The position numbers were made by a program, and so were the translations under genes. A stretch of 40,083 bases of DNA from Burkholderiaceae bacterium. Lineage in GTDB: Bacteria; Pseudomonadota; Gammaproteobacteria; Burkholderiales; Burkholderiaceae_B. The stretch spans positions 1-40,083 of the forward strand of contig JAGOAJ010000025.1 in the NCBI GenBank assembly GCA_017983955.1, read 5' to 3'. Positions 8,660-40,083 of this stretch are shown here, piece by piece (within the stretch, counting starts at the first letter, position 1; every line of letters begins with the position of its first letter). A model generated the notes under the pieces. That model worked only from the letters and a program-made list of their open reading frames with translations, was not told the origin of the DNA and searched no databases.

Positions 8660-8672
8660 GCGATGCTTAATC
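8654..8672. terminator. Hairpin across the two convergent stop codons
   Basis: A perfect 8-bp stem GATTAAGC/GCTTAATC with a 3-base loop contains the stop codon of the plus-strand oxidase and the first two bases of the minus-strand hexapeptide gene's stop. There is no good T-run, so termination is only possible. Confidence 0.4.
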
Positions 8673-9261: not shown

Positions 9262-9328
9262 ATAGTCTCCTGCGAATTATCATGGTGCAAAGAATTAATG
9301 TAGCAGCAACAACCACCCTGCTCGCAGT

Positions 9329-10387
9329 ATGGCTATCATGGAGGCTGCAAGCTTAACTTTCTATTCTTACTTACGACTGCCCCTTATGCAACGCTTACGT
9401 CTGGTATTTGATAACTTTACCCTGATCCTGATCGCGGTTGTTGCCGCCGCCACACTGATACCCGCCCATGGTTTAGGCGCTGTCATCTTCGATACCATCA
9501 CCACAGCGGCCATCGCTCTGCTATTTTTCATGCATGGCGCCAAGCTATCACGCAGTGCTATTGTCGCGGGCGCTACGCACTGGCGGCTGCATTTACTGGT
9601 TTTTGCCTGCACCTTTATTCTGCTGCCCCTGCTGGGCTGGGGCTTAAAGCCTGTACTTGAACCGTTGCTAGGCGGCCCTTTGTATGTAGGCGTGCTGTAT
9701 TTATGCGTATTGCCCGGCACCGTGCAATCCGCCATCGCTTTCACGTCCATTGCCAGGGGTAATGTGTCCGCTGCTGTCTGCAGCGCCTCGGCGTCCACCA
9801 TGATAGGTATAGTGCTAACGCCATTTTTACTAAAGCTAGTACTGGACGCCAGCGCACAGCAAGGCACCGCCTCTATGCTAAGCGCTATTTTGCACATCAG
9901 CGCCCAATTACTGCTGCCCTTTGTGGCTGGCCATCTGCTACGCCCCTGGATAGGTGCCTGGATAGACCGTAACCGCCATTGGCTAGTCAGTGTCGACCAA
10001 AGCTCTATTTTGCTGGTGGTGTATACCGCCTTCAGTGCCTCTGTGGTAGGGGGATTGTGGCAAACCGTTCCCCCAAAAGCCCTGTTCACCTTAACCATTA
10101 TTTGTTGCGTGCTGCTGGCCCTGGCCTTGTTCCTGACCACCATGCTGTCCCGTAAACTGGGCTTTAACACCGAAGACGAAATCACCATTGTTTTTTGTGG
10201 ATCGAAAAAAAGCATGGCTACTGGCGTTCCTATGGCTCAGGTCCTGTTTACCGGCAGCGCCATAGGCCCTGCCTTGCTGCCGCTGATTATTTTCCATCAA
10301 ATACAACTGATGGTGTGCTCAGTCATGGCGCAGCGTTACGCGCGCCGTGAACAGAACCTTGTGCCGGCCACAGCCACCACACAGTAA
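9329..10387 (+). CDS. Bile acid:sodium symporter family transporter (SBF-like)
   Basis: Inner-membrane protein of up to 352 residues with about ten hydrophobic helices, matching the SBF-like family widespread in bacteria (yeast Rch1 and human SLC10A7 relatives). Recognisable pieces are MRLRLVFDNFTL-like N-terminus, LLFFMHGAKLSR, LLPLLGWGLKP, LPGTVQSAIAFTSIARGNVSAAVCSASAST and, in the second half, EDEITIVFCGSKKSMATGVPMA, which carries the conserved Gly-Ser-Lys-Lys-Ser core. Substrate unknown; these are secondary Na+-coupled transporters. The start is uncertain: ATG 9329, 9338 and 9386 are in frame and none has a convincing ribosome-binding site; family members usually begin near 9386. Confidence 0.85.
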   Translation: MAIMEAASLTFYSYLRLPLMQRLRLVFDNFTLILIAVVAAATLIPAHGLGAVIFDTITTAAIALLFFMHGAKLSRSAIVAGATHWRLHLLVFACTFILLPLLGWGLKPVLEPLLGGPLYVGVLYLCVLPGTVQSAIAFTSIARGNVSAAVCSASASTMIGIVLTPFLLKLVLDASAQQGTASMLSAILHISAQLLLPFVAGHLLRPWIGAWIDRNRHWLVSVDQSSILLVVYTAFSASVVGGLWQTVPPKALFTLTIICCVLLALALFLTTMLSRKLGFNTEDEITIVFCGSKKSMATGVPMAQVLFTGSAIGPALLPLIIFHQIQLMVCSVMAQRYARREQNLVPATATTQ

Positions 10388-24510: not shown

Positions 24511-25431
24511 CTAGCCTTCTTTTGCCCGTAATAGCCCTGCCAGCAAGCGATCACGCTTGTTAACCAAGTCACCTTGGTCCATGGACTGTAATTCATCGTT
24601 GACACCTGCAACGACTTTCTGAATTAACTCGGGTGTTAATTTCGCAGTACCCAGGTCAGCCCACCAGTCCTCGATGGGCGGACCCAAGTGTTCTAAAGTG
24701 TGGGCAATGCCGGCTTCGCCACCAGACAGATGCAAATTCAAGAAAGGTCCCAGCAAGGCCCAACGCAACCCCGGCCCCTCGGAAATGGCCACATCCAAAT
24801 CAGCCACAGAAATTACGCCCTGCTCCACCAAGTAGAAGGCTTCGCGCCATAGCGCTGCTTGCAAGCGGTTTGCCACGTGGCCTTTGACTTCGGCACGTAC
24901 ATGTATAGGTTTTTTCCCTATACGCTGATAGAAGGCGAGTGTTTTCTGTACCGAATCTGACGACGTCAGCTTGCCACCGATCACTTCAACCAATGGGATT
25001 AAATGCGGCGGATTAAACGGATGCCCCAACACAATACGCTCGGGGTGCATGGCAGGCTGCTGGATATCGCTAATTAATAACCCCGAAGAACTGGACGAAA
25101 TAATAACGTCAGGTCGGGCCGCAGCTTCCATTTCCGCAAGTAGCTGATGCTTGATAGTCAGTCTTTCCGGGGCATTTTCCTGGATAAAGTCCGCATTTCT
25201 GACAGCATCAGCCACGCTTTTACAAAACACTAGGCGCTGCCTATCGGCACTGGGATCCAGGCCTTGTTCTACCAAGGCGGGCCAGAAAGAATCAACCAAT
25301 TCACGAAGATGAGTTTCTGCTGTTTCTGACGGATCGTAGGCCGTTACGCTGAACCCCCTGGCTAAAAAATAAGCTGCCCAACTGGCTCCAATAACGCCAC
25401 ACCCCACCACTGCAATATTCTTTACATCCAT
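24511..25431 (-). CDS. 3-hydroxyacyl-CoA/L-carnitine dehydrogenase-like NAD-dependent dehydrogenase
   Basis: 306-residue enzyme of the 3-hydroxyacyl-CoA dehydrogenase fold, in the branch that includes L-carnitine dehydrogenase, L-gulonate dehydrogenase and lambda-crystallin, which act on free 3-hydroxy acids. GCGVIG (10-15) binds NAD; the catalytic pair is His137 (GHPFNPPHLIPLVEV) with Glu149; SSSSSGLL and EGPGLRWALLGPF are branch-typical. It resembles Pseudomonas carnitine dehydrogenase over its whole length, but the C-terminal AHTLEHLGPPIEDWW is closer to lambda-crystallin types. AGGAG precedes ATG 25431. It is divergent from genes for a binding protein and a BKACE, a pairing that suggests oxidation of a beta-hydroxy acid to the beta-keto acid the BKACE then cleaves. 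Confidence 0.88.
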   Translation of the reverse strand: MDVKNIAVVGCGVIGASWAAYFLARGFSVTAYDPSETAETHLRELVDSFWPALVEQGLDPSADRQRLVFCKSVADAVRNADFIQENAPERLTIKHQLLAEMEAAARPDVIISSSSSGLLISDIQQPAMHPERIVLGHPFNPPHLIPLVEVIGGKLTSSDSVQKTLAFYQRIGKKPIHVRAEVKGHVANRLQAALWREAFYLVEQGVISVADLDVAISEGPGLRWALLGPFLNLHLSGGEAGIAHTLEHLGPPIEDWWADLGTAKLTPELIQKVVAGVNDELQSMDQGDLVNKRDRLLAGLLRAKEG

Positions 25432-25559
25432 TCCATGCTCCTGCTTACTTGTATAGATAGTTTTACTAGCAGAATAGCATTTCGCGACAAACGCCCCCAC
25501 CCGCTAACCGCTGTTGTTAACTACGTATAAAGCCCGATTGACTGGATCTGGATTAGCTC

Positions 25560-25586
25560 ATATGGTTACCCGTCAAATGACCATAT
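25560..25586. promoter_or_regulatory. Inverted repeat in the divergent promoter region
   Basis: Perfect 7-bp arms ATATGGT and ACCATAT are separated by 13 bases, centred about 140 bases from the minus-strand start and 60 bases from the plus-strand start. A regulator site is plausible; no regulator gene is directly attached to this module except the LysR gene at 27879-28790. Confidence 0.4.
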
Positions 25587-25631
25587 AACATCATAGTTTC
25601 AGCAACAACATATACACAGAAGGCACGACAC

Positions 25632-26840
25632 ATGAATTCCTTTCTTCTTTCCGGCATCGCCTTGGCGCTGGGCTCTATTGGCTTGTCCGCTCAAGCCACC
25701 AGCATTTCAGACGACGTCATACGCGTAGGCTTCATCACCGATATGTCGGGGGTCTACGCCGACTATGACGGCCCCGCTGGCGCCGAGGCCATACGCCTGG
25801 CTATCGAAGATGCAGGCGGCAACATCAAAGGCAAGAAAATTGAACTGCTGACCGCAGACCACCAGAACAAAGCAGATATCGCGTCGGCACGAGCCCGCGA
25901 ATGGTTCGACCAGAATGGCGTGGACGTACTGATAGGCGGCACGAACTCGGCGGCCAACCTTGCGATGTCGGCGGTCGCGGCAGAAAAGCAAAAATTATTT
26001 ATTACGACAGGTGCTGGCGCATCCGGCCTGACCAACGACCAGTGCAATCCCTACACCATTCAGTACACCTACTCCACCAGCGCCCTTGCCAATGGCACAG
26101 GTACTGCCGTAGTAAAAAATGGCGGAACCAGCTGGTTTTTCATCACCACCGATTACACCTTTGGCCATACCCTGGAAGAGCAGACATCCGCAGTCGTCAA
26201 GGCTGCCGGCGGCGAAACTAAAGGAGCTGTTCGCGTACCTTTAGGTGCTAACGACTTCTCGTCATTTATTTTGCAGGCCCAATCGTCTGGCGCAAAAATC
26301 CTAGGCCTGGCTAACGCTGGCGGCGACTTCGTCAACTCAGTCAAAGCTGCTAGCGACTTTGGCGTGAACAAGACCATGAACCTGGCCGGCATGACCGTAT
26401 TTATGCTGGACATACACTCGTTGGGGCTGGACGTTACCCAAGGCATGTATTTCACCTCGCCTTGGTACTGGAACCAATCCCCAGAGGCTGAAAAGTGGTC
26501 AGCGCGCATGGAAGAAAAAATCAAACGCAAGCCTTCTTATATCCAGGCAGGTGGCTATTCGGCCGTCACGGCCTACCTGAAAGGCGTGGACGCTACTGAC
26601 ACGGACGACGGCGCCACCATCATGAAGTGGCTGAAGTCCAATCCAGTCAATGACATGTTTGTTAAAAACGGCGTGATCCGCGCAGACGGCCGCATGATGA
26701 ACGACATGTTCCTGCTACAGGTGAAAACACCCGCAGAAAGTACTGGCCCATGGGATTACCACAAAAAAGTCGACACCATACCTGCCGAACAGCTTTATGG
26801 CACGCTGGCTGAATCCACCTGCAAATTCATCAAAGGTTAA
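25632..26840 (+). CDS. Orphan LivK-type ABC transporter substrate-binding protein
   Basis: 402-residue periplasmic binding protein, type I fold (branched-chain amino acid / amide family). The signal peptide ends near SAQA (residue 22), and the mature protein opens [24 protein letters not shown], typical of LivK-like receptors, with [21 protein letters not shown] and [20 protein letters not shown]. No permease or ATPase of the Liv type is in the window, so it must use components encoded elsewhere or act as a sensor. It is two bases ahead of the BKACE gene, so its ligand is very likely that pathway's substrate. Two cysteines (in DQCNPY and ESTCKF) could form a disulfide. AAGG lies before ATG 25632. 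Confidence 0.9.
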
Positions 26841-26842
26841 CC

Positions 26843-27760
26843 ATGACGCAACGCAAAGTCATCGTTACTATCGCCCCAACGGGCGGTATGGCTTACAAAA
26901 GCCAAAATCCGAATCTGCCCACGCAGCCCCAAGAAATCGCCTCGGACGTATATGACTGCTATAACGCAGGCGCAAGCGTCGTAGCTATTCACGCTCGCCG
27001 TCCAGGCGACGATGGTGCTACCTGCAATCCCGCCATCTATCACGATATCAACACTAGAATTCGTTCCAAGTGCGACATCGTGATCAACAACTCGACCGGC
27101 GGCGGTGTACATGGCGACATGATCGGCGAAACATCCGATGGCCTATGGGAAATTCTTTGGGAAGAGCGGATAAAAGGCATGGATGCGGGCGCAGAAATGT
27201 GCACCTTAGATGCCACAACGATAATCGCTAGCTTTGGTGGCAAAGAAATTCTGATGAATACGTCGCCCTCTCGAGCCCGCTACCTGGCGGTCGAGATGAA
27301 AAAGCGCGGTATCAAGCCAGAATGGGAAGTTTTCAGCCCCACCCATATCGTGCAAGACACCAATACATTAATTGGTGAAGGCCTGGACGATGACCCGCCC
27401 TTTATCAACCTGGTAATGGGAGTACACCGCGGCTTTCAGAACGCCATGCCATACACCCCACGAAACCTGCATGCCATGGTAGACCTACTACCATCGAATG
27501 CCGTTTTTTGCGTCAGTGGTATCGGGCCTGCCCAGTTACCTGCAGCAATGAATTCCTTGTTGCTGGGTGGTCATGTACGTGTTGGTCTGGAAGACAACCT
27601 GTATTACAACCAAGGTGAACTAGCATCCAACGTGCAACTGACCGAACGCGTCGTTCGTCTGGTGCATGAAATGGGCTATGAACCCGCCACCCCAGCCGAA
27701 GCCCGGGAAATTATGGGCCTTCCCAGGAATCAGGCGGTAAAGCCGGAATTTGCTATTTAG
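26843..27760 (+). CDS. Beta-keto acid cleavage enzyme (BKACE, DUF849), divergent metal site
   Basis: 305-residue TIM-barrel enzyme of the 3-keto-5-aminohexanoate cleavage (Kce) family. Family members condense a beta-keto acid with acetyl-CoA and split it to acetoacetate and a new CoA ester. Conserved: TIAPTGG at the start, Ser84 in NNSTGGG, and Arg246, Glu250, Asp251 in HVRVGLED, matching Kce Arg226, Glu230, Asp231. The Zn motif differs: Kce-like proteins have HxH where this protein has Ala48-Ile-His50 (VAIHARRP), so one expected histidine ligand is missing. It starts two bases after the binding-protein stop and ends at a strong terminator. The SDR and carnitine-dehydrogenase-like genes lie divergently upstream. 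Confidence 0.9.
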
Positions 27761-27783
27761 GTAGCGACCTGCTGTAGAAAGTG

Positions 27784-27824
27784 CACTGGCCCCGGAGTTG
27801 TTATGCCGGGGCCAGTGTTTTATT
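27784..27824 (+). terminator. Rho-independent terminator after BKACE
   Basis: A perfect 12-bp GC-rich stem CACTGGCCCCGG/CCGGGGCCAGTG with a 10-base loop is followed by TTTTATTT. Confidence 0.9.
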
Positions 27825-27878
27825 TCGAAGAAATTTAACGTCGAAATATGAATGCATTTAAGGGCATTTCTGACATCA

Positions 27879-28790
27879 TCACCGTACTGTCAATACCGAG
27901 TTGTCGGCCGACTGTATACGATCCCTAAGCATTTTTTTTAGCCAGCGACAAAACTCTCGGGCTGTCTGTACGTGGTTGCTATGCGGATTCAGGTAAGCGG
28001 CATACATTGCGCCAGAGACCACCTTTTCACCTTCCACCATGACCAGGGTGCCGCCGTGCAACTGATCCAGCACAAAAAGCCGTGGAACTACCAATAGACC
28101 TGCACCGCCAATTGCAGCGGCTACTGCAAGAAAAAAATGATCATACATGGCACCGACATATAGCTGATCCGGAGCAATTCCTTTCGCCATAGCCCATGTA
28201 GCAATCACGTCCGGCCTTGAGCGTGCCGCAATCATGGGCCAGCTATACGGCGCCTGAGTGCGGCTGCGCACCAAGGCTGGGCTGCCCACGCACACAAGTT
28301 CCTCATGGATCAGATTCCAGCTTTCAGTGCCAGGCAAGGTCAAGTCACGTGTAATTAATACATCGAATTGATCAGATGGCTGCGGTGGAGACAATGACGT
28401 AACCAGATCCACATTCACGTTATCGATAGCGGTAAAAGCGCCCAGAGCGGGAACCACCACAGCCAAGGCGAATGTCGGCATGGAGGTGCGGACCAGTAGC
28501 CGATCATGCACCCGGCCTTGTTGGACCAGATGATGGGTAGCCAACTCGATGGTGGAAACGGCATCCCCCACCTCGTTATAAAACTGCAAACCTATTGGCG
28601 TAAAAGCGATAGCAGATCCCTTACGCTCGAAGAGTTGGCAACCCGCCAGCGCTTCAAGCGTCGCCACATTCCTGCTGACTGCGCTTTGCGTAATACCCAG
28701 AGCCGCTGCCGCACGTGTGAAGTTGCCATGCACCCCTATTGCCACAAAAGCCCGTATCGCCGTCAACGGCATGCCCGCATCTTTAACCAT
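27879..28790 (-). CDS. LysR-family regulator, probable regulator of the phosphonoalanine genes
   Basis: 303 residues: N-terminal winged helix-turn-helix (about 8-66; FTRAAAALGITQSAVSRNVATLEALAG) and a C-terminal periplasmic-binding-protein-like effector domain. It shows the GcvA-like features (AIRAFVAIGVHGNFTRAA) and PRLFVLDQLHGGTLVMV near the end. It is divergent from the ABC importer gene 139 bases away, the classic LysR arrangement for activating the neighbouring operon in response to the pathway's substrate. Start ATG 28790 or the in-frame 28772. It could also serve the BKACE module, which ends 118 bases from its stop codon but is on the other strand. Confidence 0.92.
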   Translation of the reverse strand: MVKDAGMPLTAIRAFVAIGVHGNFTRAAAALGITQSAVSRNVATLEALAGCQLFERKGSAIAFTPIGLQFYNEVGDAVSTIELATHHLVQQGRVHDRLLVRTSMPTFALAVVVPALGAFTAIDNVNVDLVTSLSPPQPSDQFDVLITRDLTLPGTESWNLIHEELVCVGSPALVRSRTQAPYSWPMIAARSRPDVIATWAMAKGIAPDQLYVGAMYDHFFLAVAAAIGGAGLLVVPRLFVLDQLHGGTLVMVEGEKVVSGAMYAAYLNPHSNHVQTAREFCRWLKKMLRDRIQSADNSVLTVR

Positions 28791-28929
28791 GACAAAAACT
28801 CATCCTGTACTGAAGAAACCGCATAGAAAAATAGTTATCTGGAGTGCTATATGCTAATTTAGTCTTCGTAAATCCGGTTAAAAATCATAATTATTATAGT
28901 TCACACTACCGCACAACGAGGAGTCAATA

Positions 28930-29913
28930 ATGCTACGTCATATCTCTAGAATATGCCTAATACTCATGATGGCATGCACCACGATCACCCCAGTTTCCGC
29001 AGCAGAAGTCGTGCTGTATTCCTCCAACAATGTTGAGACGGTGAATCATATTGTCGCGTTGTTTGGCAAAGACCATCCTGATATCAAAGTATCGGTTGTC
29101 CGGGCAGGCACAGGCGCACTTATGCAGCGTATCAAAGCTGAAGCAGCAAATCCGCTGGGTGACATATTCTGGTCTGGCGGTCTGTCCACCATAGGTGAGT
29201 TCCGCGACCAATTAGAACCTTATGTGTCGCCACTGGCGAACACGATCCCCGCAGAGTATCTGGGACCCGATGGCTTGTGGCTTGGCACCAATGTCCACAT
29301 TACCGTGGTAATGGCCAATTTGCGTCAGACCCCGAATGGCACAGCACCAGCCAGTTGGGCCGACTTGATGGATCCTAAATGGAAAGGAAAAATTGTCATC
29401 CCAGACCCGGAGCGCAGCAGCTCTTCCTACGTAGCGCTGTATGGCTTGCAAAAGTTGCTGGGAACCGAAGTGTTGGCAAAGATAGTCAATAACTCCATCA
29501 TTGTAGGCACCACTTCCGCCGCCTACGATGGCGTCGCCAAAGGCGAGTTCGCATTGGCCGTCACTATGGAATATGCCGCCTATGAATATGTTGCCGGCGG
29601 CATGAAGGAAATCAAGCTGATCTACCCCACAGAGGGTACTTTCCTCTCTCCTGAAGGAATGGCCTTGATCAAGGGAGCCAAACATCCAGAGGAAGCACGC
29701 AAACTATATGAGTTCCTTGCCTCGAAAGACTTGCAGACCGAGGTGTTCAAAACCGCATATCGGCGCCCACTACGTGAAGATATTGATGTTACCCAGTTCA
29801 CTGAGCTTCCTGCCATGCAGAGCGTAAAAATTATCGCACTGGACGATGGAAAAATGGCTGCTGACCGATCGGAATTTTTGGCACAGTGGCGTCAAATCAT
29901 TTCCGCACGTTAA
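28930..29913 (+). CDS. ABC transporter substrate-binding protein, (amino)phosphonate type
   Basis: 327-residue periplasmic protein with a signal peptide (cut near PVSA, residue 24) and the type II binding fold of the Fe(III)/2-aminoethylphosphonate family: VVLYSSNNVETVNHIVALF, VRAGTGALMQRIKAEAANPLGDIFWSGG, WADLMDPKWKGKIVIPDP, EGTFLSPEGMALIKGAKHPEEARKLYEFLAS. In this family iron receptors carry paired tyrosines; the tyrosines here (for example Tyr26 region and AAYDGVAKGEFALAVTMEYAAYEY) do not settle the ligand alone. Its operon with an aminotransferase and phosphonopyruvate hydrolase points to phosphonoalanine. GAGGAG precedes ATG 28930. Confidence 0.88.
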   Translation: MLRHISRICLILMMACTTITPVSAAEVVLYSSNNVETVNHIVALFGKDHPDIKVSVVRAGTGALMQRIKAEAANPLGDIFWSGGLSTIGEFRDQLEPYVSPLANTIPAEYLGPDGLWLGTNVHITVVMANLRQTPNGTAPASWADLMDPKWKGKIVIPDPERSSSSYVALYGLQKLLGTEVLAKIVNNSIIVGTTSAAYDGVAKGEFALAVTMEYAAYEYVAGGMKEIKLIYPTEGTFLSPEGMALIKGAKHPEEARKLYEFLASKDLQTEVFKTAYRRPLREDIDVTQFTELPAMQSVKIIALDDGKMAADRSEFLAQWRQIISAR

Positions 29914-29941
29914 TGACAGCGCAACATCACAGGAGCCCGCG

Positions 29942-31006
29942 ATGCAGGTAACGTTCAGGGACATTAACCAAAGCTACGGCAAACAAACCTTGTTCAACCA
30001 GCTCAACCTGATAATACCTAGCAGCCGGTTTTTTACACTGCTAGGGCCATCAGGCTGCGGGAAAACCACGTTATTGAGGCTACTGGCCGGCTTTGTCCGG
30101 CCCGATAGCGGCAGCATACTGTTTGGTGATACCGACGTAAGCTCGGTGCCGGTACACCGCCGCGATGTTGGCATGGTATTTCAAGACTATGCCCTCTTTC
30201 CGGATCGTTCTATTCTGGCCAACGTCTGTTACGGTCTGTCCGCCCGCAACGTGCCCAAAAAGGAAGCCACCAAGCGGGCCATGGCGATGCTTGAGCGAGT
30301 CGGTCTACATGCCTTTGCTGACCGTTCACCGTCCTCCCTGTCGGGTGGCCAGCGCCAACGGGCCGCCATGGCCCGAGCGCTGGTCATTAAACCTAAACTG
30401 CTTCTGCTTGACGAGCCTCTGTCTGCACTAGACGTCAAGTTACGGGTGGAACTGCGCGCCATGGTACGGGAGCTACAAACCGAGTTCCAAATAACCACCG
30501 TCTTTGTTACCCATGATCAGGAGGAAGCGCTGGCCATGTCGGACCTGATTGCTGTCATGGATCAAGGGAGGGTAGTGCAACTTGGCACACCAGAGGAAAT
30601 ATATGCCAGGCCTCGCACCGCATTCGCCGCTGATTTTGTCGGCAGTGCGAACTTGATACCGATTACTGGCGAGCAAGCAGCGAGCCCCGATGGTTTGCGT
30701 CGTCTTGACACCCCGGCAGGTGTGCTGCTCACCCAGTCCCCCATCGCCTTGTCTGCTGGCGCACAACTGGCCGTACGCAGCGAGGAAATTGCCTTCGCTG
30801 ACACCAATCAACCACAGGCAGGCAGACTGGCGGGCGTGATTGAACACATCGAATTTCGGGGCAGCACCACGGGTTATATCGTGCGCACCGCGGCCGGTTC
30901 CCTGCATGTGGATCTGGGCACCCATCTACAAAAGCGCTTGTTCACACGCGGAGAGTCCGTGATGTTGGCGTTGCCAAAGTCTGCACATATTGTGGAGGGG
31001 TCATGA
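29942..31006 (+). CDS. ABC transporter ATP-binding protein, (amino)phosphonate type
   Basis: 354-residue ATPase. Walker A GPSGCGKTT at 35-43, Q-loop FQDYALFP, signature LSGGQRQRAAMARAL, Walker B LLLLDEPLSALD and switch VFVTHDQEEALAMSD are all intact. The C-terminal 110 residues form a TOBE-like regulatory domain, as in FbpC/PotA-type ATPases. AGGAG lies seven bases before ATG 29942; an in-frame ATG at 29846 would overlap the binding-protein gene and is rejected. The stop overlaps the permease start in an ATGA. It energises uptake through the fused permease encoded next. Confidence 0.94.
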   Translation: MQVTFRDINQSYGKQTLFNQLNLIIPSSRFFTLLGPSGCGKTTLLRLLAGFVRPDSGSILFGDTDVSSVPVHRRDVGMVFQDYALFPDRSILANVCYGLSARNVPKKEATKRAMAMLERVGLHAFADRSPSSLSGGQRQRAAMARALVIKPKLLLLDEPLSALDVKLRVELRAMVRELQTEFQITTVFVTHDQEEALAMSDLIAVMDQGRVVQLGTPEEIYARPRTAFAADFVGSANLIPITGEQAASPDGLRRLDTPAGVLLTQSPIALSAGAQLAVRSEEIAFADTNQPQAGRLAGVIEHIEFRGSTTGYIVRTAAGSLHVDLGTHLQKRLFTRGESVMLALPKSAHIVEGS

Positions 31007-32661
31007 ACCTGGGCATACTGCGCCGTGATCCTGTCTGGCTGGCGATAGCCGTGTTGTCAATCGGCTTTCTGTGCTTCTTTTTGGTTTGGCCACTGACGAC
31101 GATACTGGGCAAGTCCTTTGTGGCCACGGATGGCAGCGTGGGCCTGGAAGGCTATATCCGTTTTTTTTCTGAGGCACAGTATCGTAGCGTCTTTTTCAAC
31201 ACCCTAATACTTGGCGCTACCGTTACGTTAGGCTCGATGGTGGTGGGTGGCGGACTGGCCTTTGTGGTGGCCCGCTGCCAGTTCCCACTGGCTGGACTGG
31301 TCGCTGCTCTGCCACTCGTCACCTTAGTCATCCCTGATGTTGTGGTGGCTGCGGCCTGGATCTTGATCCTAGGCAAGCAAGGCTTGGTCAATGGCTGGCT
31401 GGAGCCGTTAGGTATTCAAATGCCAACACTCTATTCATGGTGGGGTCTGATCTTTGTCATGACACTAAACAATTACGTCTACGCCTTTGTAGCTGTATTT
31501 GTAGGCCTGAAATCCATGGACAGAAACTTGGAGGAAGCTGGACTAAGCCTAGGCCGGCCCACTGGCCGGGTACTGCTTGGCATCACCATCCCCCTACTAC
31601 TCCCATCCGTCTTTGCGGGCTCTTTGGTGGTATTTACTCACGTGATAGGCAGTTTCGGCGTGCCGGCAATTTTGGGGGCGCGCAACCCTGTGCTTGCGGT
31701 CAAGGCGTACAACGAATTTGTCAGCGAGATGGGCGGCAACCCGCAGATGCAAACCACTATGGCCTCACTGCTGGTGTATCTGGGGGCCGGCTTGTTGTTA
31801 ATTCAAAAGTTTGTAGTGGAGCGTCGACAGTTTCAAATGGAAGCCGGACGGACGCCCTACACCATACCTATCAAAGGCTGGCGCGCCGGACTGGCGACAG
31901 CCACTGTCATTGCCATCGTCACTCTTTCTTTACTACCCGCCGTGACGGTAGTAATTACCGCCTTTACGCCTTCGATCGGGCCGGTATTGCATTATGGGGG
32001 CTTTACCCTGGCGCACATGCAACACGCGCTACTGCGGGCTCCGGAGCCACTGTACAACTCGCTGTTTCTATCTTCGATCGCAACCGTAGCTGGGGTATTT
32101 TTTTCGATCGCCGCTGCCTATCTGATTGTAAAACGACGCTCGTCGCTTAGCGGCGCGTTGGACATCCTGGTCATGCTGCCTTTAACCATTGCGGGCACGG
32201 TATTGGGCATCGCGCTGATCAACACCTTTAATAACGGATGGCTAGTGCTGACGGGTAGTTGGGTGATTATGGCCTTGGCTTATTTTCTGCGACGGGTACC
32301 TACCAGCGTACGCGCTGCGGTCGGCCCTTTATATAACCTGAAAGACTCCATCGAAGAGGCGTCCATGAGTCTAGGGGTCAGCCCCATGCGCAGTTTTTTT
32401 CGGGTCGTCCTCCCCGTGATAGGCCCATCAGTTATTGCAGCAGCCGTCCTGATGTGGGTCACCACCCTGTCAGAACTGTCCGCCACCATTGTGCTGTATT
32501 TCGGCGGCATGAACACCATGCCCATCGAGATATTCCAGCAAGTCGATAGTGGTCGGCTAGCCCTGGCCTGCGCGTATAGCTTGCTACAACTTTTTGTCAT
32601 CTTTTTCCCGCTGGCACTTGCCCGTTGGATATTCCGCCTCAAGGTAGGGACCATAGAATGA
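31003..32661 (+). CDS. Fused double-domain ABC permease, (amino)phosphonate type
   Basis: 552-residue inner-membrane protein with about 12 helices, two binding-protein-dependent permease domains in one chain. Each half has an EAA loop that contacts the ATPase: EEAGLSLGRPTGRVLLGITI (177-196) and EEASMSLGVSPMRSFFRVVL (451-470). This is the FbpB/PhnU-type layout in which one gene supplies both halves of the channel. Its first bases overlap the ATPase stop and its last four overlap the aminotransferase start (ATGA), so transport and catabolic genes form one translationally coupled unit. Confidence 0.94.
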   Translation: MNLGILRRDPVWLAIAVLSIGFLCFFLVWPLTTILGKSFVATDGSVGLEGYIRFFSEAQYRSVFFNTLILGATVTLGSMVVGGGLAFVVARCQFPLAGLVAALPLVTLVIPDVVVAAAWILILGKQGLVNGWLEPLGIQMPTLYSWWGLIFVMTLNNYVYAFVAVFVGLKSMDRNLEEAGLSLGRPTGRVLLGITIPLLLPSVFAGSLVVFTHVIGSFGVPAILGARNPVLAVKAYNEFVSEMGGNPQMQTTMASLLVYLGAGLLLIQKFVVERRQFQMEAGRTPYTIPIKGWRAGLATATVIAIVTLSLLPAVTVVITAFTPSIGPVLHYGGFTLAHMQHALLRAPEPLYNSLFLSSIATVAGVFFSIAAAYLIVKRRSSLSGALDILVMLPLTIAGTVLGIALINTFNNGWLVLTGSWVIMALAYFLRRVPTSVRAAVGPLYNLKDSIEEASMSLGVSPMRSFFRVVLPVIGPSVIAAAVLMWVTTLSELSATIVLYFGGMNTMPIEIFQQVDSGRLALACAYSLLQLFVIFFPLALARWIFRLKVGTIE

Positions 32662-33884
32662 ACCCCGTAAAACAGCCTGAATCCTCATTTCTGGCGCAAC
32701 GTGTACTTAGCGCCAAACCCTCGGCCACTAAGGAAATGACTCGCTTGGGCAATCAGCTTAAACAAGAAGGTCGCAGCATCATCGTTCTTAGCCAGGGCGA
32801 ACCCGACTTTCCTACGCCCGAGCATGTTCGCACCGCCGCCAAAGCCGCAATTGATCGCAATGAATCTCGTTATACAGAAGTTGCTGGTACGCTTGCACTG
32901 CGTCAAGCGATAGTTCGAAAATTTGAACGTGACAACCAGCTGAGCTATAGCCCAGAGCAGATACAGGTTGGCTGCGGGGCTAAACAACTGCTGTACAACG
33001 CCTTGCAGGCCACCATCAGCACAGGCGACGAAGTGGTTATACCCACTCCCGCATGGGTCTCCTATCCTGAAATGGTGTTGCTGGCTGGTGGTCAGCCGGT
33101 GATTGTGCGATGCGGCGCCACCTCAGGTTTCAAAATCACGCCTCAGCAACTGGAGGCTGCCATTACCCCACGCACCAAATGGCTGATGCTGAACTCCCCA
33201 TCCAATCCCAGTGGCTCAGTCTATAGCTCCGACGAACTAGCCGCATTGGCCGACGTCTTGCTGCGTCATCCCCAGGTCTGGGTCATGGCCGACGATATCT
33301 ACGAAAAAATCCGTTACGACGACTCGCCATTTGCCACCATGGCAGCTGTCGCCCCGGAATTAGCCTGCCGCACCCTGACTATCAACGGTGTTTCCAAAGC
33401 CTATGCCATGACGGGCTGGCGCGTAGGGTATGGAGCTGGGCCATTGGAACTGATCAAGGCAATGAACCTGGTGCAGTCGCAATCAACTTCCCACACCAGC
33501 TCCATCAGCCAAGCGGCGTCGATCGCTGCTCTGGATGGGCCCATGGATTTTCTGGAAGGCTTCATCAATACCTTCCGCTCGCGCCGCGACATGGTCGTCA
33601 TGGCATTGCGTCAGATTGAAGGTATGGAGTGCAATCTCCCGGCTGGCGCCTTCTACGCTTTTCCAAACTGCCAAGGCCTGCTGGGGCGCCGCGACCAGGC
33701 CAATAACCTGATAGCGACTGACACCGATCTAGCGCTATATCTGCTGCGTGAAGCGGAGGTTGCGATCGTGCCGGGCTCCGCCTTCGAGTTACCCGGTCAC
33801 TTGCGCCTATCGTACGCGGCATCTGACGACGACCTGAAGATCGCCATGGTGCGTATTGCCGCCGCCTGCGCGCTGCTGCGATAA
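32658..33884 (+). CDS. Class I PLP aminotransferase, probable phosphonoalanine transaminase
   Basis: 408-residue fold-type I aminotransferase of the aspartate aminotransferase superfamily. Pyridoxal phosphate would bind Lys247 in NGVSKAYAMTGWRVGYGAG; Asp213 and Tyr217 region (ADDIYEKIRYD) and NSPSNPSG (179-186) are cofactor and substrate contacts. Start ATG 32658 overlaps the permease stop and follows AGGGA. By context it should convert L-phosphonoalanine (2-amino-3-phosphonopropionate) to phosphonopyruvate, the substrate of the hydrolase encoded 42 bases downstream; in Variovorax sp. Pal2 a transaminase has this role. Alone, the sequence would only say aromatic/aspartate-type aminotransferase. 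Confidence 0.9.
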   Translation: MNPVKQPESSFLAQRVLSAKPSATKEMTRLGNQLKQEGRSIIVLSQGEPDFPTPEHVRTAAKAAIDRNESRYTEVAGTLALRQAIVRKFERDNQLSYSPEQIQVGCGAKQLLYNALQATISTGDEVVIPTPAWVSYPEMVLLAGGQPVIVRCGATSGFKITPQQLEAAITPRTKWLMLNSPSNPSGSVYSSDELAALADVLLRHPQVWVMADDIYEKIRYDDSPFATMAAVAPELACRTLTINGVSKAYAMTGWRVGYGAGPLELIKAMNLVQSQSTSHTSSISQAASIAALDGPMDFLEGFINTFRSRRDMVVMALRQIEGMECNLPAGAFYAFPNCQGLLGRRDQANNLIATDTDLALYLLREAEVAIVPGSAFELPGHLRLSYAASDDDLKIAMVRIAAACALLR

Positions 33885-33926
33885 ATCACCCTCTCTCTAA
33901 TTCAGCCCAATGCAAAGGCTTATCAC

Positions 33927-34799
33927 ATGAACAAAAATCAGACGCTACGTCACTCATTGTCCCAGGGCAAGCTGTTCACCGCCATGTCCGCACACAACCC
34001 CTTGGCCGCCAAACTGGCCGAAGAGGCCGGTTTCAATGGCATCTGGGGCAGTGGTTTCGAACTGTCCGCCAGCTATGCCGTGCCCGACGCCAATATCCTG
34101 TCCATGGGCACCCATCTGGAAATGATGCGCGCCATTGCAGCTACCATATCTATCCCCCTGATTGCCGACGTAGACACTGGCTTTGGCAATGCCGTCAATG
34201 TCAGCTACATCGTGCCTCAATACGAGGCGGCTGGCGCCTCGGCTATTGTGATGGAAGACAAAACCTATCCCAAGGACACCAGCCTGCGCGCTAACGCCCG
34301 TCAGGAACTGGTGCGTATAGAAGAGTTCCAAGGCAAGGTTGAGGCGGCTGCAGCAGCACGCCAAGATAAAGACTTTGTGATTGTTGCCCGCACTGAAGCA
34401 CTCATCGCCGGTTTGGGCCAGGATGTCGCGCTTGAACGCGCTTTGGCCTACGTAGCAGCTGGCGCTGACGCGATCCTGATCCATTCGAAACAAAAAACAC
34501 CCGATGAAATTCTGCGCTTTGTTGACGCCTGGAATGGCAAGGTACCTTTGGTGCTAGTGCCCACAGCCTACCCCCAACTAACGGAAGCCGACGTACAGGC
34601 TCTGGGAAAAGTAGGTGTCGTCATTTATGGCAATCATGCCATCCGTGGGGCCGTCGAAGGCATGCGCCGCGTCTTTGCGCAAATTCGACGCGACGGCGGC
34701 ATACGTGATGCCGATCAAACTCTACCCACCGTCAAAGAAATCATCGCCCTGCAAGGGGATGAAAAAATGCGAGACATTGAGGCCAGATTCCTTCGCTAA
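33927..34799 (+). CDS. pphA: Phosphonopyruvate hydrolase
   Basis: 290-residue TIM-barrel enzyme of the PEP mutase/isocitrate lyase superfamily that hydrolyses 3-phosphonopyruvate to pyruvate and phosphate. It matches Variovorax Pal2 phosphonopyruvate hydrolase in length and almost line by line from memory (TAMSAHNPLAAKLAEEAGFN, GIWGSGFELSASYAVPDANI, HLEMMRAIAATISIPLIADV, IRRDGGIR). Diagnostic: in the active-site gating loop EDKTYPKDTSLR the residue is Thr118, at the same number as the Variovorax enzyme's Thr118; PEP mutase has Asn (PKTNS) there. Mg2+ ligands Asp81, Asp83 region and Glu110 are intact. Last gene of the operon, before a strong terminator. Isocitrate lyase or methylisocitrate lyase is excluded by the lack of their KKCGH signature. 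Confidence 0.93.
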   Translation: MNKNQTLRHSLSQGKLFTAMSAHNPLAAKLAEEAGFNGIWGSGFELSASYAVPDANILSMGTHLEMMRAIAATISIPLIADVDTGFGNAVNVSYIVPQYEAAGASAIVMEDKTYPKDTSLRANARQELVRIEEFQGKVEAAAAARQDKDFVIVARTEALIAGLGQDVALERALAYVAAGADAILIHSKQKTPDEILRFVDAWNGKVPLVLVPTAYPQLTEADVQALGKVGVVIYGNHAIRGAVEGMRRVFAQIRRDGGIRDADQTLPTVKEIIALQGDEKMRDIEARFLR

Positions 34800-34832
34800 C
34801 GGTGTCAATACCAACACCTAGCAGCGAAAAAG

Positions 34833-34862
34833 AAAAAGCCCTGTATAAACAGGGCTTTTTCT
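34833..34862. terminator. Bidirectional terminator between pphA and tRNA-Ser
   Basis: A perfect 12-bp stem AAAAAGCCCTGT/ACAGGGCTTTTT with loop ATAA has T-runs in both directions; it ends the phosphonoalanine operon and the convergent tRNA-Ser transcript. Confidence 0.92.
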
Positions 34863-34872
34863 TGCTAATTAC

Positions 34873-34965
34873 TGGCGGAGATGGAGGGATTCGAACCCTC
34901 GATGCGGGTATAAGCCGCATGCTCCCTTAGCAGGGGAGTACCTTCAACCACTCGGCCACATCTCC
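34873..34965 (-). tRNA. tRNA-Ser (anticodon GCT)
   Basis: 93 bases with encoded CCA and the long variable arm of a class II tRNA. On the minus strand the acceptor stem GGAGATG pairs with CATCTCC; the anticodon stem CTCCC/GGGAG encloses loop CTGCTAA (anticodon GCT, reading AGC/AGU); the variable arm forms GCATGCGGC...GCCGC-type pairing; the T arm has GGGTTCGAATCCC. No convincing -35/-10 pair was found upstream. Confidence 0.96.
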
Positions 34966-35117
34966 GAAACAGGCCGCCATTCTAGCACGATAAAAAGATT
35001 GTTTGGCGCGGCCAGCCCATATTCCCCATAAACATTCATATTCAGGTAAAGTTTCGCCCTGCAATCATCGGTGTGGGGCCCTGCCCCAGCCTTTATAAAA
35101 ATTTCTGGAGTATTTCA

Positions 35118-36437
35118 ATGAATGCGGTTGTCGCTGCAGTCGTCATTATGCTGATTCTCAGCTTGTGTCGCATACATGTGGTCATGGCATTAATTATCGG
35201 CGCGCTAACCGGCGGGCTATTGGGCGGCATGGGCATTAGCGGCACGCTGGCGGCATTTAATAAAGGCTTGGGTGGTGGGGCTACCGTGGCTCTGTCTTAT
35301 GCCTTGCTGGGGGCGTTTGCCGTGGCTATCGCCAAGTCCGGGATAGCCCATGCATTGGCCGACAAAATATTGTCCATGGTAGGCAAGAAAAGTGGCACGG
35401 GGACTGAAACTGTTAAATGGTTGCTAATTTTGCTGCTGTTGGCTGCGGCGGTTTCTTCGCAAAACATTCTACCTATACATATCGCCTTTATTCCCTTGCT
35501 AATACCGCCACTGCTGTATGTGATGGCACGGCTACAACTGGATAGGCGCTTGGTGGCCTGCGTACTGACATTTGGTCTGATCACGCCGTATATGTTTCTG
35601 CCAGTGGGTTTTGGCGGTATTTTCCTTAACGATATTTTGCTGGCCAACGTAGCCAAGTCTGGCGTAGACGTGACAGGCGTCAGCGTGATGCGTGCCATGG
35701 GCATTCCTGCCTTGGGCATGGTGGTGGGTCTGCTGGTTGCAGTCTTGTTCAGCTACCGCAAAAAGCGTGTGTACAACGTTGAACAGATAGGGAAAACCGA
35801 AGAGATCACCGCCACCTATAACCTGAAAAGCTTGCTGGCTGCTGGGGCGGCCGTGATTACGGCCTTCGTGGTTCAGCTGTGGCTGGATTCCATGATTATG
35901 GGTGCTTTGGCGGGGTTTGTGCTGTTTTCGCTAACTCGTGTGGTGCGCTGGAAAGAAGCTGACGATTTGTTTACCGAAGGTATGAAGATGATGGCCATGA
36001 TAGGCTTCATCATGATTGCAGCGTCGGGCTTTGCCGAGGTCATGCGCGCCACTGGCGAAGTTCAAACCTTGGTAGATGCGTCCGCAGTATGGATAGGCGA
36101 CAGCAAGGCGCTTGGGGCTTTTCTAATGCTGGTGGTCGGCTTATTGGTGACTATGGGCATAGGCTCGTCGTTTTCGACCGTGCCAATTATTGCGGCTATC
36201 TTTGTGCCGCTGGCAGTGCAACTGGGCTTTGGGCCGCTGGCTATAGTCAGCATCGTTGGTACTGCAGGCGCTCTGGGGGACGCGGGTTCACCGGCATCAG
36301 ACTCTACGCTGGGACCGACCTCGGGGTTGAACGTGGACGGACAACACAACCACATCTGGGATACCGTGGTGCCTACCTTCCTGCATTACAACCTGCCGCT
36401 GCTGGCCTTTGGCTGGGTGGCGGCAATGATACTGTAA
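35118..36437 (+). CDS. Na+/H+ antiporter family (NhaC-like) membrane protein
   Basis: 439-residue integral membrane protein with about 11-12 helices, similar to the Haemophilus HI1107-type Na+/H+ antiporter group. Visible motifs: [57 protein letters not shown]-type opening (in pieces), [57 protein letters not shown] and the conserved [24 protein letters not shown]. Start ATG 35118 has GGAG eight bases upstream; an in-frame start at 35073 is less likely and would read through a small leader hairpin (TGGGGC/GCCCCA at 35074-35088). Transported ion is inferred from family only; amino acid antiport is an alternative. Confidence 0.88.
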
Positions 36438-36458
36438 GGCTCAAAGCGCCACAAAAAC

Positions 36459-36497
36459 AAACGGGGGTCACAAACTACTAGTCTGTGACCCCCGTTT
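36459..36497. terminator. Bidirectional terminator between antiporter gene and lysC
   Basis: A perfect 14-bp stem AAACGGGGGTCACA/TGTGACCCCCGTTT with an 11-base loop lies between the two convergent stop codons. Confidence 0.88.
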
Positions 36498-36511
36498 CAT
36501 AACCACGTCGC

Positions 36512-37786
36512 TTAAGTCGACAATGGATTACTGTTTTCCTGATCCAGACCAAACGCCTTGTGCAGGGCGCGCACGGCCAGTTCCATGTACTTGTCGTTGA
36601 TGATGACCGAGGTCTTGATTTCGCTGGTGCTGATCATCTGGATATTGATGCCCTCTTCGGACAACGTACGGAACATTAAGCTGGCCACGCCTACGTGGCT
36701 GCGCATGCCTATACCCACGATGGATACCTTGCACACCTTGTCATCAGACACGATTTCAGCTGCGCCTACAGCAGGTGCTATCTGATTTTTCAGCAGGTCC
36801 AGGGTACGCGCAAAGTCGTTACGGTTGACGGTGAACGAGAAATCCGTTGTGCCATCGACCGATTGGTTCTGCAATATCATGTCCACGTCAATATTGGCCG
36901 CAGCCACTGGGCCCAAAATTGAATAGGCCACACCGGGGGTGTCAGGCACGGCCAACAGGGTAAGTTTGGCTTCGTCACGACTAAAGGCTATGCCTGAAAC
37001 AACAGCTGCTTCCATTTTCTGATCTTCCTCGAAAGTAATAAGGGTGCCGGAAATTTTTTCCTCTTCTACCGGTAACATTGGGTCAGTCAGCGAAGACAAG
37101 ACCCGTACCGGGACACGGTATTTCCCGGCGAACTCCACAGAGCGAATTTGCAGCACTTTAGAGCCCAGCGAGGCCAGTTCCAGCATTTCCTCGAAGGACA
37201 CCACATTCATACGGCGTGCTTCTGGAACGACGCGGGGATCCGTGGTGTAGACCCCATCGACATCGGTGAAGATTAGGCATTCGTCAGCCTTCAAGGCTGC
37301 CGCCATAGCCACAGCCGAGGTATCGGAACCGCCACGGCCTAAGGTGGTAATGTGGCCGTCTTCGTCTATGCCTTGAAAGCCAGTAACTATGACCACACGG
37401 CCAGCGTCCAGATCGGCACGCACGCGGGTGTCGTCTATGGATTTAATACGGGCGCGCGTGTAGGACGAGTCGGTACGCACTGGCACTTGCCAACCGGCGT
37501 AGCTTCTGGCTGGCACGCCCTGGGACATCAGTGCCATGGCTAGCAAGGCGCTGCTGGCCTGCTCGCCGGTCGAGGCGAGCATATCCAGCTCGCGGCTATC
37601 GGGTTGGGGGGAAATTTCCTTGGCCAAGCCCAGCAGACGGTTGGTTTCACCGGACATGGCCGACGGCACCACCACCACCTGATGACCTGCGGCATGCCAT
37701 TTGGCCACCCGCCGCGCGACATTCTGTATGCGCTCGACCGAGCCCATAGAGGTGCCGCCATACTTATGAACAATCACGGACATCAT
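36512..37786 (-). CDS. lysC: Aspartate kinase
   Basis: 424-residue cytosolic kinase for the first step of lysine, methionine, threonine and isoleucine synthesis and of the diaminopimelate cell-wall precursor. The N-terminal VHKYGGTSMGSVERI is the substrate/nucleotide signature; FTDVDGVYTTDPRVVPEARR is in the kinase domain; two ACT domains (about 265-420) give allosteric feedback by lysine and/or threonine. ATG 37786 and the next codon ATG 37783 are equally plausible starts; GAG is the only upstream help. It follows tilS by 91 bases in the conserved accA-tilS-lysC order. No lysine riboswitch was seen in the leader. Confidence 0.95.
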   Translation of the reverse strand: MMSVIVHKYGGTSMGSVERIQNVARRVAKWHAAGHQVVVVPSAMSGETNRLLGLAKEISPQPDSRELDMLASTGEQASSALLAMALMSQGVPARSYAGWQVPVRTDSSYTRARIKSIDDTRVRADLDAGRVVIVTGFQGIDEDGHITTLGRGGSDTSAVAMAAALKADECLIFTDVDGVYTTDPRVVPEARRMNVVSFEEMLELASLGSKVLQIRSVEFAGKYRVPVRVLSSLTDPMLPVEEEKISGTLITFEEDQKMEAAVVSGIAFSRDEAKLTLLAVPDTPGVAYSILGPVAAANIDVDMILQNQSVDGTTDFSFTVNRNDFARTLDLLKNQIAPAVGAAEIVSDDKVCKVSIVGIGMRSHVGVASLMFRTLSEEGINIQMISTSEIKTSVIINDKYMELAVRALHKAFGLDQENSNPLST

Positions 37787-37877
37787 TTACTCTGTATAAA
37801 GTGATACTGCGTACAAAACAGACCGGACATAATCACACGCCCGCCAAGCAAAACGGTATATTTTAGCGTTTTTAGCC

Positions 37878-38954
37878 CTAGACGTTTTTCACAGCCACCT
37901 GGCCACCATCCTTCACTATCACCCTGCCCCTGATGCAGCTTATTTGAGCGCCAGCGTGCCTCATGGTCAGTTGTCTATCATGGCCCAAGGCGTGTAAACC
38001 ACGCAATTGCCGCATTAGTTCCTGCAGCTTGGCGTCTGACGGCATGCCCAGCCCGGCCTGTGCCAGCCACCAGCGCAGCACCAGTGCTTGACGGGCCGGT
38101 GTCAGCAAACGCCATAAGGCCAATGAGAAATTTTTAGCATCGCTATCCGGGGCAAGGCCGGCAAAGTCGCTGGCAGCGACTTCATCCAGAACGCTGCTGG
38201 CCTGGGCGCTTTGTCGCGCATGACGCGCCAAAGCAGCCTGCCAACCTGGCCAGCGTTCATTCAAGGCCGGGGTCAGGCGCTCGCGTACCGCCCCGCGGGT
38301 GTAGTCATCGCTGTGATTAGTTGGGTCGTGTACCGGCGTCCAAGCAGTGGCCTGCTCGAAGACCTTGGCCTGCTTCAGTATCCGTGCACGATCCACATCC
38401 AACCAAGGGCGTACATAGTTGATACCGAGTCGGTGGCTTAAGGGCGCCATGGCAGCCAACCCCGTCGGTCCTGAACCCCGTAGCAGACGCAAAATAACGG
38501 TTTCCGCCTGGTCGTCACGGTGATGCGCCAGCAATATGTGTTGCACGCCTATTTGCTGGGCCATAGCGGAAAAGGCTTGATAGCGCGCATCGCGGGCCGC
38601 CGCTTCCATACCCTTGCCGGCGGTCAGATCCACCTGCACCCTGTGGCTATGGCAAGGCAAACCCAGTTTATGCGCCAGATCATGCACATGATCGCGCCAC
38701 CCCGAGGCAGGCGCTTGTAAGCCATGATGTATATGCAAGCAGTGCAGCACGATGTTGGCGCTACGGGCATACGCCGCAGCATGTAACGCCAGCATGGCCG
38801 AATCAACGCCGCCACTTAAAGCGACGGCGATCTGTAATGGGCGCTGTGGCAAAGCGACTATCGCATTTGCAATAGGCCGGATCAGCGTCGGATCACACCA
38901 ACTAGTGTCCAGCGCCCCCGGCTGCTTAGCTGCGTGCTTCCTGGAATCGGCCAT
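37878..38954 (-). CDS. tilS: tRNA(Ile)-lysidine synthase
   Basis: 358-residue ATP-dependent enzyme that turns C34 of the minor tRNA-Ile (anticodon CAU) into lysidine, so that it decodes AUA rather than AUG. The PP-loop SGGVDS is at 47-52, followed by LHIHHGLQ and the [23 protein letters not shown] stretch; the C-terminal part is the shorter substrate-binding domain. Start ATG 38954 lies inside the end of accA (29-base overlap), so translation is probably coupled. It is essential wherever AUA codons are used, and they look frequent here. Confidence 0.95.
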
Positions 38955-39891
38955 AGGACATCAGACGGTCTACTCGTTGCTGGACCAACTGCTGCGCCGA
39001 CATTCCGGATAATTGCCTAAGCGAATCGGCCAACGCGCGGCTTAGTTGTCTGGCCATAGTGACCGGGTCGCGATGCGCACCGCCTACAGGTTCATTGACG
39101 ATACGATCAACAAGCCCTAATTCTTTAAGGCGTGGCGCAGTAATAGCCAAGGCTTCTGCAGCCGTCGACGCTTTTTCAGGGCTGCGCCACAAGATGGACG
39201 CACAGCCTTCAGGGGAAATCACGGCATAAGTGGCGTATTGCAACATCATAACCACGTCGCCCACGGCCAGAGCCAGCGCGCCACCCGAACCACCCTCGCC
39301 TATGATGGTCGCAATAATGGGAACTTTGAGTTCCGCCATGGCGTACAGATTGTGCCCTATGGCTTCGGACTGTCCACGTTCTTCGGCACCTACGCCGGGA
39401 TAAGCACCGGGCGTATCCACAAAGGTAAATACTGGCAGCTGAAACTTTTCTGCCAGACGCATCAGGCGCAAGGCCTTGCGATAGCCTTCGGGGCGCGGCA
39501 TTCCAAAGTTACGCATAGCGCGTTCTTTGGTGTCCCGGCCTTTTTGATGACCTATCACCATGCAGGGCGTGCCGTTAAAGCGCGCCAAACCACCCACGAT
39601 GGCCAGGTCATCCGCAAACATGCGATCGCCGTGCAGTTCGTGGAAATCAGTGAAAATTTCACGTACATAATCCAGCGTATAGGGCCGCTGTGGATGACGT
39701 GCCACCAACGCCGTTTGCCACGACGTCAGTTTTGAATAGATATTTTTAGCAAGAGTCTGGTTCTTTTGCTGCAGCCGGCCGATTTCCTCAGAAATGTCGA
39801 CCGCAGAATCAGTTTGAACAAAGCGCAGCTGCTCGATCTTGTTTTCAAGCTCGGCAAGCGGCTGTTCAAATTCCAGGAAAGTATTACGCAT
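38926..39891 (-). CDS. accA: Acetyl-CoA carboxylase carboxyltransferase subunit alpha
   Basis: 321-residue subunit of the carboxyltransferase half of acetyl-CoA carboxylase (with AccD), the committed step of fatty acid synthesis. Opening [19 protein letters not shown], then [73 protein letters not shown] and [16 protein letters not shown] with the oxyanion glycines. Length equals the beta-proteobacterial norm. It begins 36 bases after the glycosylase gene and overlaps tilS, so the whole group is likely one transcript. Confidence 0.97.
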
Positions 39892-39927
39892 AAGAGCTAG
39901 GTTTCCAAATTAGGACATGCAATTTTA

Positions 39928-40083
39928 TTAGTACTGGACAGCGGCAGGGTCAAGACTGCGCCACAAATACCAGGCAGCCACCGTGCGCCAAGGCGCCCAC
40001 GCCTGGGCAACCTCACGAGCCTCGAAACGTGAAACAGGCTCGCCACTGAAGTAGTGTAGCGAAATTGCCTTAAGTAGGCTTGC
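39928..40083 (-). CDS. AlkA-like (HhH-GPD) DNA-3-methyladenine glycosylase, C-terminal end
   Basis: Only the last 51 residues are inside the window; the gene continues past the right edge. The minus-strand frame reads KAISLHYFSGEPVSRFEA, then EVAQAWAPWRTVAAWYLWR and ends DPAAVQY before TAA. The W-x-PWR-x-x-AAWYLWR segment is the end of the HhH-GPD glycosylase domain in the DNA-3-methyladenine glycosylase II family. In Bordetella and relatives such a gene also lies just upstream of accA, which agrees. Confidence 0.8.
   Translation of the reverse strand, partial: ASLLKAISLHYFSGEPVSRFEAREVAQAWAPWRTVAAWYLWRSLDPAAVQY

Follow-up and report, generated by a model that had tools for sequence, protein, structure and literature searches.

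A putative pal cluster for phosphonoalanine uptake and C–P bond hydrolysis in a Burkholderiaceae genome

Six neighboring genes in a Burkholderiaceae genome raise two questions: whether they encode a self-contained route that imports phosphonoalanine and cleaves its C–P bond, and whether such a route is as rare as the original prediction held. The genome is 94% complete and consists of 62 contigs; the stretch analyzed here, referred to as the window, is 40,083 nucleotides long. All six ORFs were open where they had been placed (Table 1), and both of the ATGA overlaps described earlier, between the ATPase and permease genes (31003–31006) and between the permease and aminotransferase genes (32658–32661), were present in the sequence. 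The remaining gaps were 139 bp between the LysR and binding protein genes, 28 bp between the binding protein and ATPase genes, and 42 bp between the aminotransferase and hydrolase genes. For the ATPase, the start at 29942, preceded by CAGGAG, was chosen, and for the aminotransferase that at 32658; the ORF list also contained longer starts (29846 and 32625, respectively), both of which overlap the preceding gene. The promoter and terminator scan returned fewer sites than its shuffles did. The G+C contents of the cluster genes ranged from 51 to 57%, compared with 53% for the window, so a recent transfer was not indicated by composition.

Table 1. Features of the putative pal cluster and its immediate surroundings (window positions)
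Feature	Position	Strand	Description
palR-like LysR regulator	27879..28790	-	303 aa; divergent from operon; Pfam HTH_1 and LysR_substrate above cut-off
Periplasmic substrate-binding protein, presumed phosphonoalanine binder	28930..29913	+	327 aa; SBP_bac_6 and SBP_bac_8 above cut-off
ABC transporter ATPase with TOBE domain	29942..31006	+	354 aa; ABC_tran and TOBE_2 above cut-off
Fused ABC permease	31003..32661	+	552 aa; two BPD_transp_1 stretches
PLP aminotransferase, palB-like	32658..33884	+	408 aa; Aminotran_1_2
Phosphonopyruvate hydrolase, palA	33927..34799	+	290 aa; TIGR02321 above cut-off
Candidate PalR operator ATGACAAAAACTCAT, ATGA-N7-TCAT	28789..28803		across palR start
tRNA-Ser gene	34873-34965	-	beyond hydrolase

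The gene content of the cluster was compared with that of described phosphonate systems. According to a 2023 review, Variovorax sp. Pal2 has, besides PalA and PalB, a LysR gene, palR, and palC-E, three genes with a putative role in transport, and induction in this strain requires PalR together with phosphonoalanine or phosphonopyruvate and is independent of phosphate (PMC10574752). The same two-step phosphonoalanine pathway is given in the accessible part of a second paper (PMC8154272). The window shares the six-gene composition of Pal2, and, judged from its sequence, the cluster is this already published and named pal system. The pathway interpretation of the original prediction was therefore supported, with the hydrolase now placed beside the Variovorax enzyme and the gene composition matched to Pal2, but its claim of rarity was not, and the system already had a name. 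The route had been described as known only from a few organisms, whereas the review, in the text available, counts palA in 201 IMG genomes, of which 99% belong to the Alpha-, Beta-, or Gammaproteobacteria (PMC10574752), and our genome and plasmid scans agree with this. Marine palA sequences are few, according to the available portion of another paper (PMC9381506). The cluster is ordinary in kind and adds a further example of a phosphate-independent route, already known, from phosphonoalanine to pyruvate, transferable nitrogen, and phosphate. What the present analysis adds is the C–P lyase genes of the same genome, the corresponding site in a sister genome, and a candidate operator. The practical gains are small, namely a PalR operator candidate that can be tested and a cluster that one species carries and a near relative lacks as a whole block.

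A scan of the genome_contigs collection yielded 30 loci, which the gating-loop residues divided into 24 of the phosphonopyruvate hydrolase (PPH) type and six of the PEP mutase type. Four of 41 matched plasmid records and five nonduplicate loci from relatives (L048–L051 and L054) were added, giving a total of 33 PPH-type loci besides the window. The window hydrolase scored 559.2 bits over residues 1 to 290 against TIGR02321, the phosphonopyruvate hydrolase equivalog (cut-off 374.4). A gapless alignment with PDB entry 2dua, labeled phosphonopyruvate hydrolase in the PDB, showed 227 of 290 identical residues (78%). We take the source of 2dua to be Variovorax sp. Pal2, and a Variovorax origin fits both its near-identity to a Variovorax gene in the tree and the title of the structure paper. 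The gating loop of the window hydrolase is KDTS (D117-T118), the same as in 2dua. Thr118, to which the original prediction had drawn attention, aligned with the Thr of 2dua, and both aligned PEP mutases have Asn; across the loci, typed as they were by gating-loop residues, position 118 held Thr or Ser in the PPH type and Asn in the PEP mutase type.

A maximum-likelihood tree with 41 rows separated 33 PPH rows, including the window and 2dua, from eight PEP mutase-type rows, two of which are solved PEP mutases, with a support of 100/97. This is the tree that we rely on; it was built without L002, the genome's own paralogue, which sat on an extreme branch, without L025, L028, and L029, which are partial or decayed, and without L052 and L053, whose sequences are those of L006 and L005. 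Two earlier trees, which contained L002 and had a long outgroup, supported the PPH side at 98/98 and 86/97, and in the latter a single clade of the eight PEP mutase-type rows was not rejected (p-AU 0.42).

That the hydrolase is instead a PEP mutase, a methylisocitrate lyase, or an oxaloacetase-type enzyme is very unlikely. It belongs to the same superfamily, and the PEP mutase 5unc still aligned with it at 246 bits; however, its scores were below the cut-offs for PEP mutase (TIGR02320, 271.5 bits; cut-off 319.55) and methylisocitrate lyase (prpB, 162.2 bits; cut-off 354.4), and both the tree split and the Thr in place of Asn argue against such a function. Compared with the Variovorax enzyme and PEP mutase, it sided with 2dua, and by alignment, profiles, and tree it fell outside the PEP mutase group, which was the point at which the original prediction could have failed at the sequence level. 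The assignment of PalA as a metal-dependent hydrolase of the PEP mutase superfamily, predicted to convert phosphonopyruvate to pyruvate and phosphate, is strongly supported by these comparisons.

The binding protein, ATPase, permease, and aminotransferase reached the cut-off of none of the named phosphonate families listed in the profile search. For all three transporter proteins, the best-matching families were those of the 2-aminoethylphosphonate ABC transporter, with scores below the curated cut-off in each case (binding protein, PhnS2, 126 bits, cut-off 392.75; ATPase, PhnT2, 345.5 bits, cut-off 457.7; permease, PhnU2, 198.3 bits, cut-off 593.25). The nearest solved structures of the binding protein were mostly iron-type binding proteins. 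The aminotransferase scored 523 bits against PRK06107 (aspartate transaminase; cut-off 617), and its nearest solved structures, 6f35 and 6f77, are aspartate aminotransferases B and A; its motif SKAYAMTGWR contains Lys247, presumably the PLP lysine. Because no named phosphonate family cut-off was reached, the substrate assignments for transporter and aminotransferase rest on gene order, and we infer their part in a phosphonoalanine route from family, operon, and gene order together. These family names and nearest structures would fit an alternative in which the hydrolase alone is phosphonate specific and 2-aminoethylphosphonate, iron, or an acidic amino acid is the substrate of the transporter and the aminotransferase. 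Nevertheless, seven other loci have kept the full set together with palA and a divergently oriented LysR gene, no PhnW or PhnX above the cut-off was found in the 94%-complete genome, and the ATGA overlaps link the transporter to the aminotransferase, all of which make that explanation improbable. The window very probably carries a pal cluster, with phosphonoalanine import, transamination, C–P hydrolysis, and control by PalR.

Systems for 2-aminoethylphosphonate of the PhnW/PhnX and AepXVW types likewise combine LysR control and ABC import with transamination followed by C–P hydrolysis, and in outline they share the regulator type, the mode of import, and the two-step logic with the window cluster. 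Their transporter subunits are distantly related to those of the window, which did not reach the 2-aminoethylphosphonate transporter models. PhnX, an HAD enzyme according to the available text of the review, and PalA are unrelated hydrolases (PMC10574752).

In a pal cluster of this kind, L-phosphonoalanine would be taken up through the transporter formed by binding protein, ATPase, and fused permease. The PalB-type aminotransferase, as its family and operon suggest, would then transfer the amino group onto a keto acid, leaving phosphonopyruvate, whose C–P bond PalA would split into pyruvate and phosphate. If the behavior of Pal2, as given in the available text of the review, applies here, the divergently encoded PalR would turn the operon on with phosphonoalanine or phosphonopyruvate, whatever the phosphate level, perhaps acting through the palindrome ATGA-N7-TCAT. 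Growth on phosphonoalanine as a source of C, N, and P would be the predicted outcome.

Gene order in the other loci was derived from tblastn maps, in which hits with less than 35% query coverage or overlapping a better hit were dropped; the maps were used in place of ORF calls, which in high-G+C loci contained many shadow ORFs. The original prediction had suggested a search for the same gene order in other Burkholderiales. The window's six-gene order (R-S-A-P-T-H, from regulator to hydrolase) recurred in seven of the other PPH-type loci, which number 33: L003 (Bordetella genomosp. 4), L007 (Alcaligenes), L011 (Pseudorhodoferax), L024 (Paracidovorax), L044 (Variovorax paradoxus VAI-C), L048, and L054. 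The VAI-C proteins were 63% (regulator), 73% (binding protein), 71% (ATPase), 80% (permease), and 81% (aminotransferase) identical to those of the window. Because the hydrolase of this strain is almost identical to 2dua (branch 0.004), the gene order of the window is probably that of the Pal2 type cluster.

A palB-like gene (55–82% identical) was located beside the hydrolase in only 11 of the 33 PPH-type loci, indicating that the hydrolase is not bound to this gene set everywhere. In L045, L049, and L015, the aminotransferase gene adjoins the hydrolase gene and the whole set is not kept. The other 22 loci had no palB-like gene directly beside the hydrolase; an aminotransferase gene in this position in L017 was just 27% identical, one that was 49% identical lay about 5 kb from the hydrolase in L051, the regulator adjoined the hydrolase without an aminotransferase in L004, and less than 1 kb upstream of the hydrolase was covered in L013, L018, and L021. 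The presence of the hydrolase was patchy, with a protein above the cut-off in eight of 150 genomes (the window's own and seven of the 149 others). In L046, on plasmid pB of Sinorhizobium meliloti, the same kinds of genes were found, with the binding protein gene behind the permease gene and a distant regulator (28%). Downstream of them and in the same direction, a D-amino-acid transaminase, a Glu/Leu/Phe/Val dehydrogenase, and a pyruvate carboxylase are annotated, which might extend the route to the D-form or serve to use the pyruvate.

The LysR regulator reached the NCBIfam cut-off of none of the best 25 of 49 matched families, and it was 49 to 67% identical to the regulators of the seven loci with the same gene order. 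Between palR and its neighbor, the palindrome ATGA-N7-TCAT was present in seven of 10 palR-upstream regions (absent from L003, L011, and L024), and every other arm word of the 256 at this spacing occurred in at most one of them; the 10 regions, chosen without the distant regulators of L015, L046, and L047, are related and do not represent ten independent cases. LysR boxes follow a T-N11-A pattern, with which the word is compatible. In the genome, ATGANNAAAACTCAT had one exact place and four more with one mismatch, and a reversed-pattern control gave two. The palindrome of the window is out of frame with palR as called, and that of L044 spans the annotated first five codons of palR, so that coding constraint may account for part of its conservation. 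On these grounds, ATGA-N7-TCAT may be regarded as a candidate PalR operator. The broader proposal, in which PalR would act through it on both its own gene and the pal operon and the cluster with its operator would move between Burkholderiales as one cassette, is tentative, and we put its chances slightly below even. No mention of an operator or palindrome was found in two searched papers that cover both PalR and phosphonoalanine, and the 2009 primary paper could describe one.

Control by phosphate was considered separately. With an E. coli-type Pho box consensus, the best match in 28701–28960 agreed at 12 of 18 positions, and 87 of 200 shuffles equaled it. The earlier remark that no Pho box was obvious was borne out, and Pho control of the cluster was rejected as a candidate on the basis of this match.

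To the sides of the cluster, the window could be aligned with G001, the only congeneric genome among those searched (locus L064, C44:130500-147000). G001 keeps the flanking genes, with the beta-keto acid cleavage enzyme (BKACE) 96% and the antiporter 95% identical at the protein level, and the flank DNA was 80 to 83% identical. The alignment breaks off at 27759, where the BKACE gene ends, roughly 120 bp outside palR; it is picked up again at 34828, some 30 bp past the hydrolase stop and near tRNA-Ser(GCT). At this site, G001 carries an unrelated catabolic gene block made up of a branched-chain-type ABC transporter, for which the binding protein was scanned and the ATPases and permeases were named by eye, together with alcohol, short-chain, and aldehyde dehydrogenases. 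No hydrolase above the cut-off was found anywhere in the G001 genome, and no permease there was closer than 27%. The pal cluster is present in the window genome and absent from G001 as one block. Given a single congeneric genome for comparison and no hint from G+C, a gain in the former and a loss in the latter are indistinguishable. The relatives of the G001-block aldehyde dehydrogenase in the window's own genome were at most 58% identical, indicating that this gene was not simply relocated there. Nothing pointed to an origin from a plasmid or phage: a megablast of window 25000–40083 against the plasmid collection gave 0 matches, and the phage collection gave two matches, of 34% and 38% identity.

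C–P lyase releases phosphate from phosphonates by radical chemistry and is under Pho control. The same genome carries a C–P lyase (phn) operon at a separate locus outside the pal cluster, on contig C56 (62000–75071; L056), with phnC, D, E, H, L, M, and N above their cut-offs together with phnJ. The ORF at the phnI place received no name from the scan, which left out the phnG and phnK places. Because the genome carries these genes, phosphonoalanine might also serve as a P source through the C–P lyase route.

Several minor observations concern the hydrolase loci and the surroundings of the cluster. Related proteins of about 500 aa are encoded in L015 (a Desulfobacula MAG; approximately 8328–9827) and L047 (a Bradyrhizobium plasmid; 326–1831), either adjacent to the hydrolase or some 6 kb away; for the L047 protein, the annotation reads alkaline phosphatase family. 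By its score, the L015 protein, the one scanned, is not the phosphonoacetate hydrolase PhnA (23.4 bits; cut-off 407.55); the two are possibly an unrecognized phosphonate or phosphoester enzyme. In L028, from the Sodalis-like endosymbiont of Proechinophthirus fluctus, the hydrolase frame is decayed, with eight stops in the matched stretch, and in L008, from Sodalis sp. dw_96, the hydrolase is free of stops. Adjoining the cluster, window 24511–27760 contains an L-carnitine-dehydrogenase-like gene (minus strand), a Peripla_BP_6 binding protein gene, and the BKACE gene, all of which occur in G001 too. A similar pair of binding protein and BKACE genes (59% and 74%, respectively) lies about 7 kb beyond the pal cluster in Bordetella genomosp. 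4.
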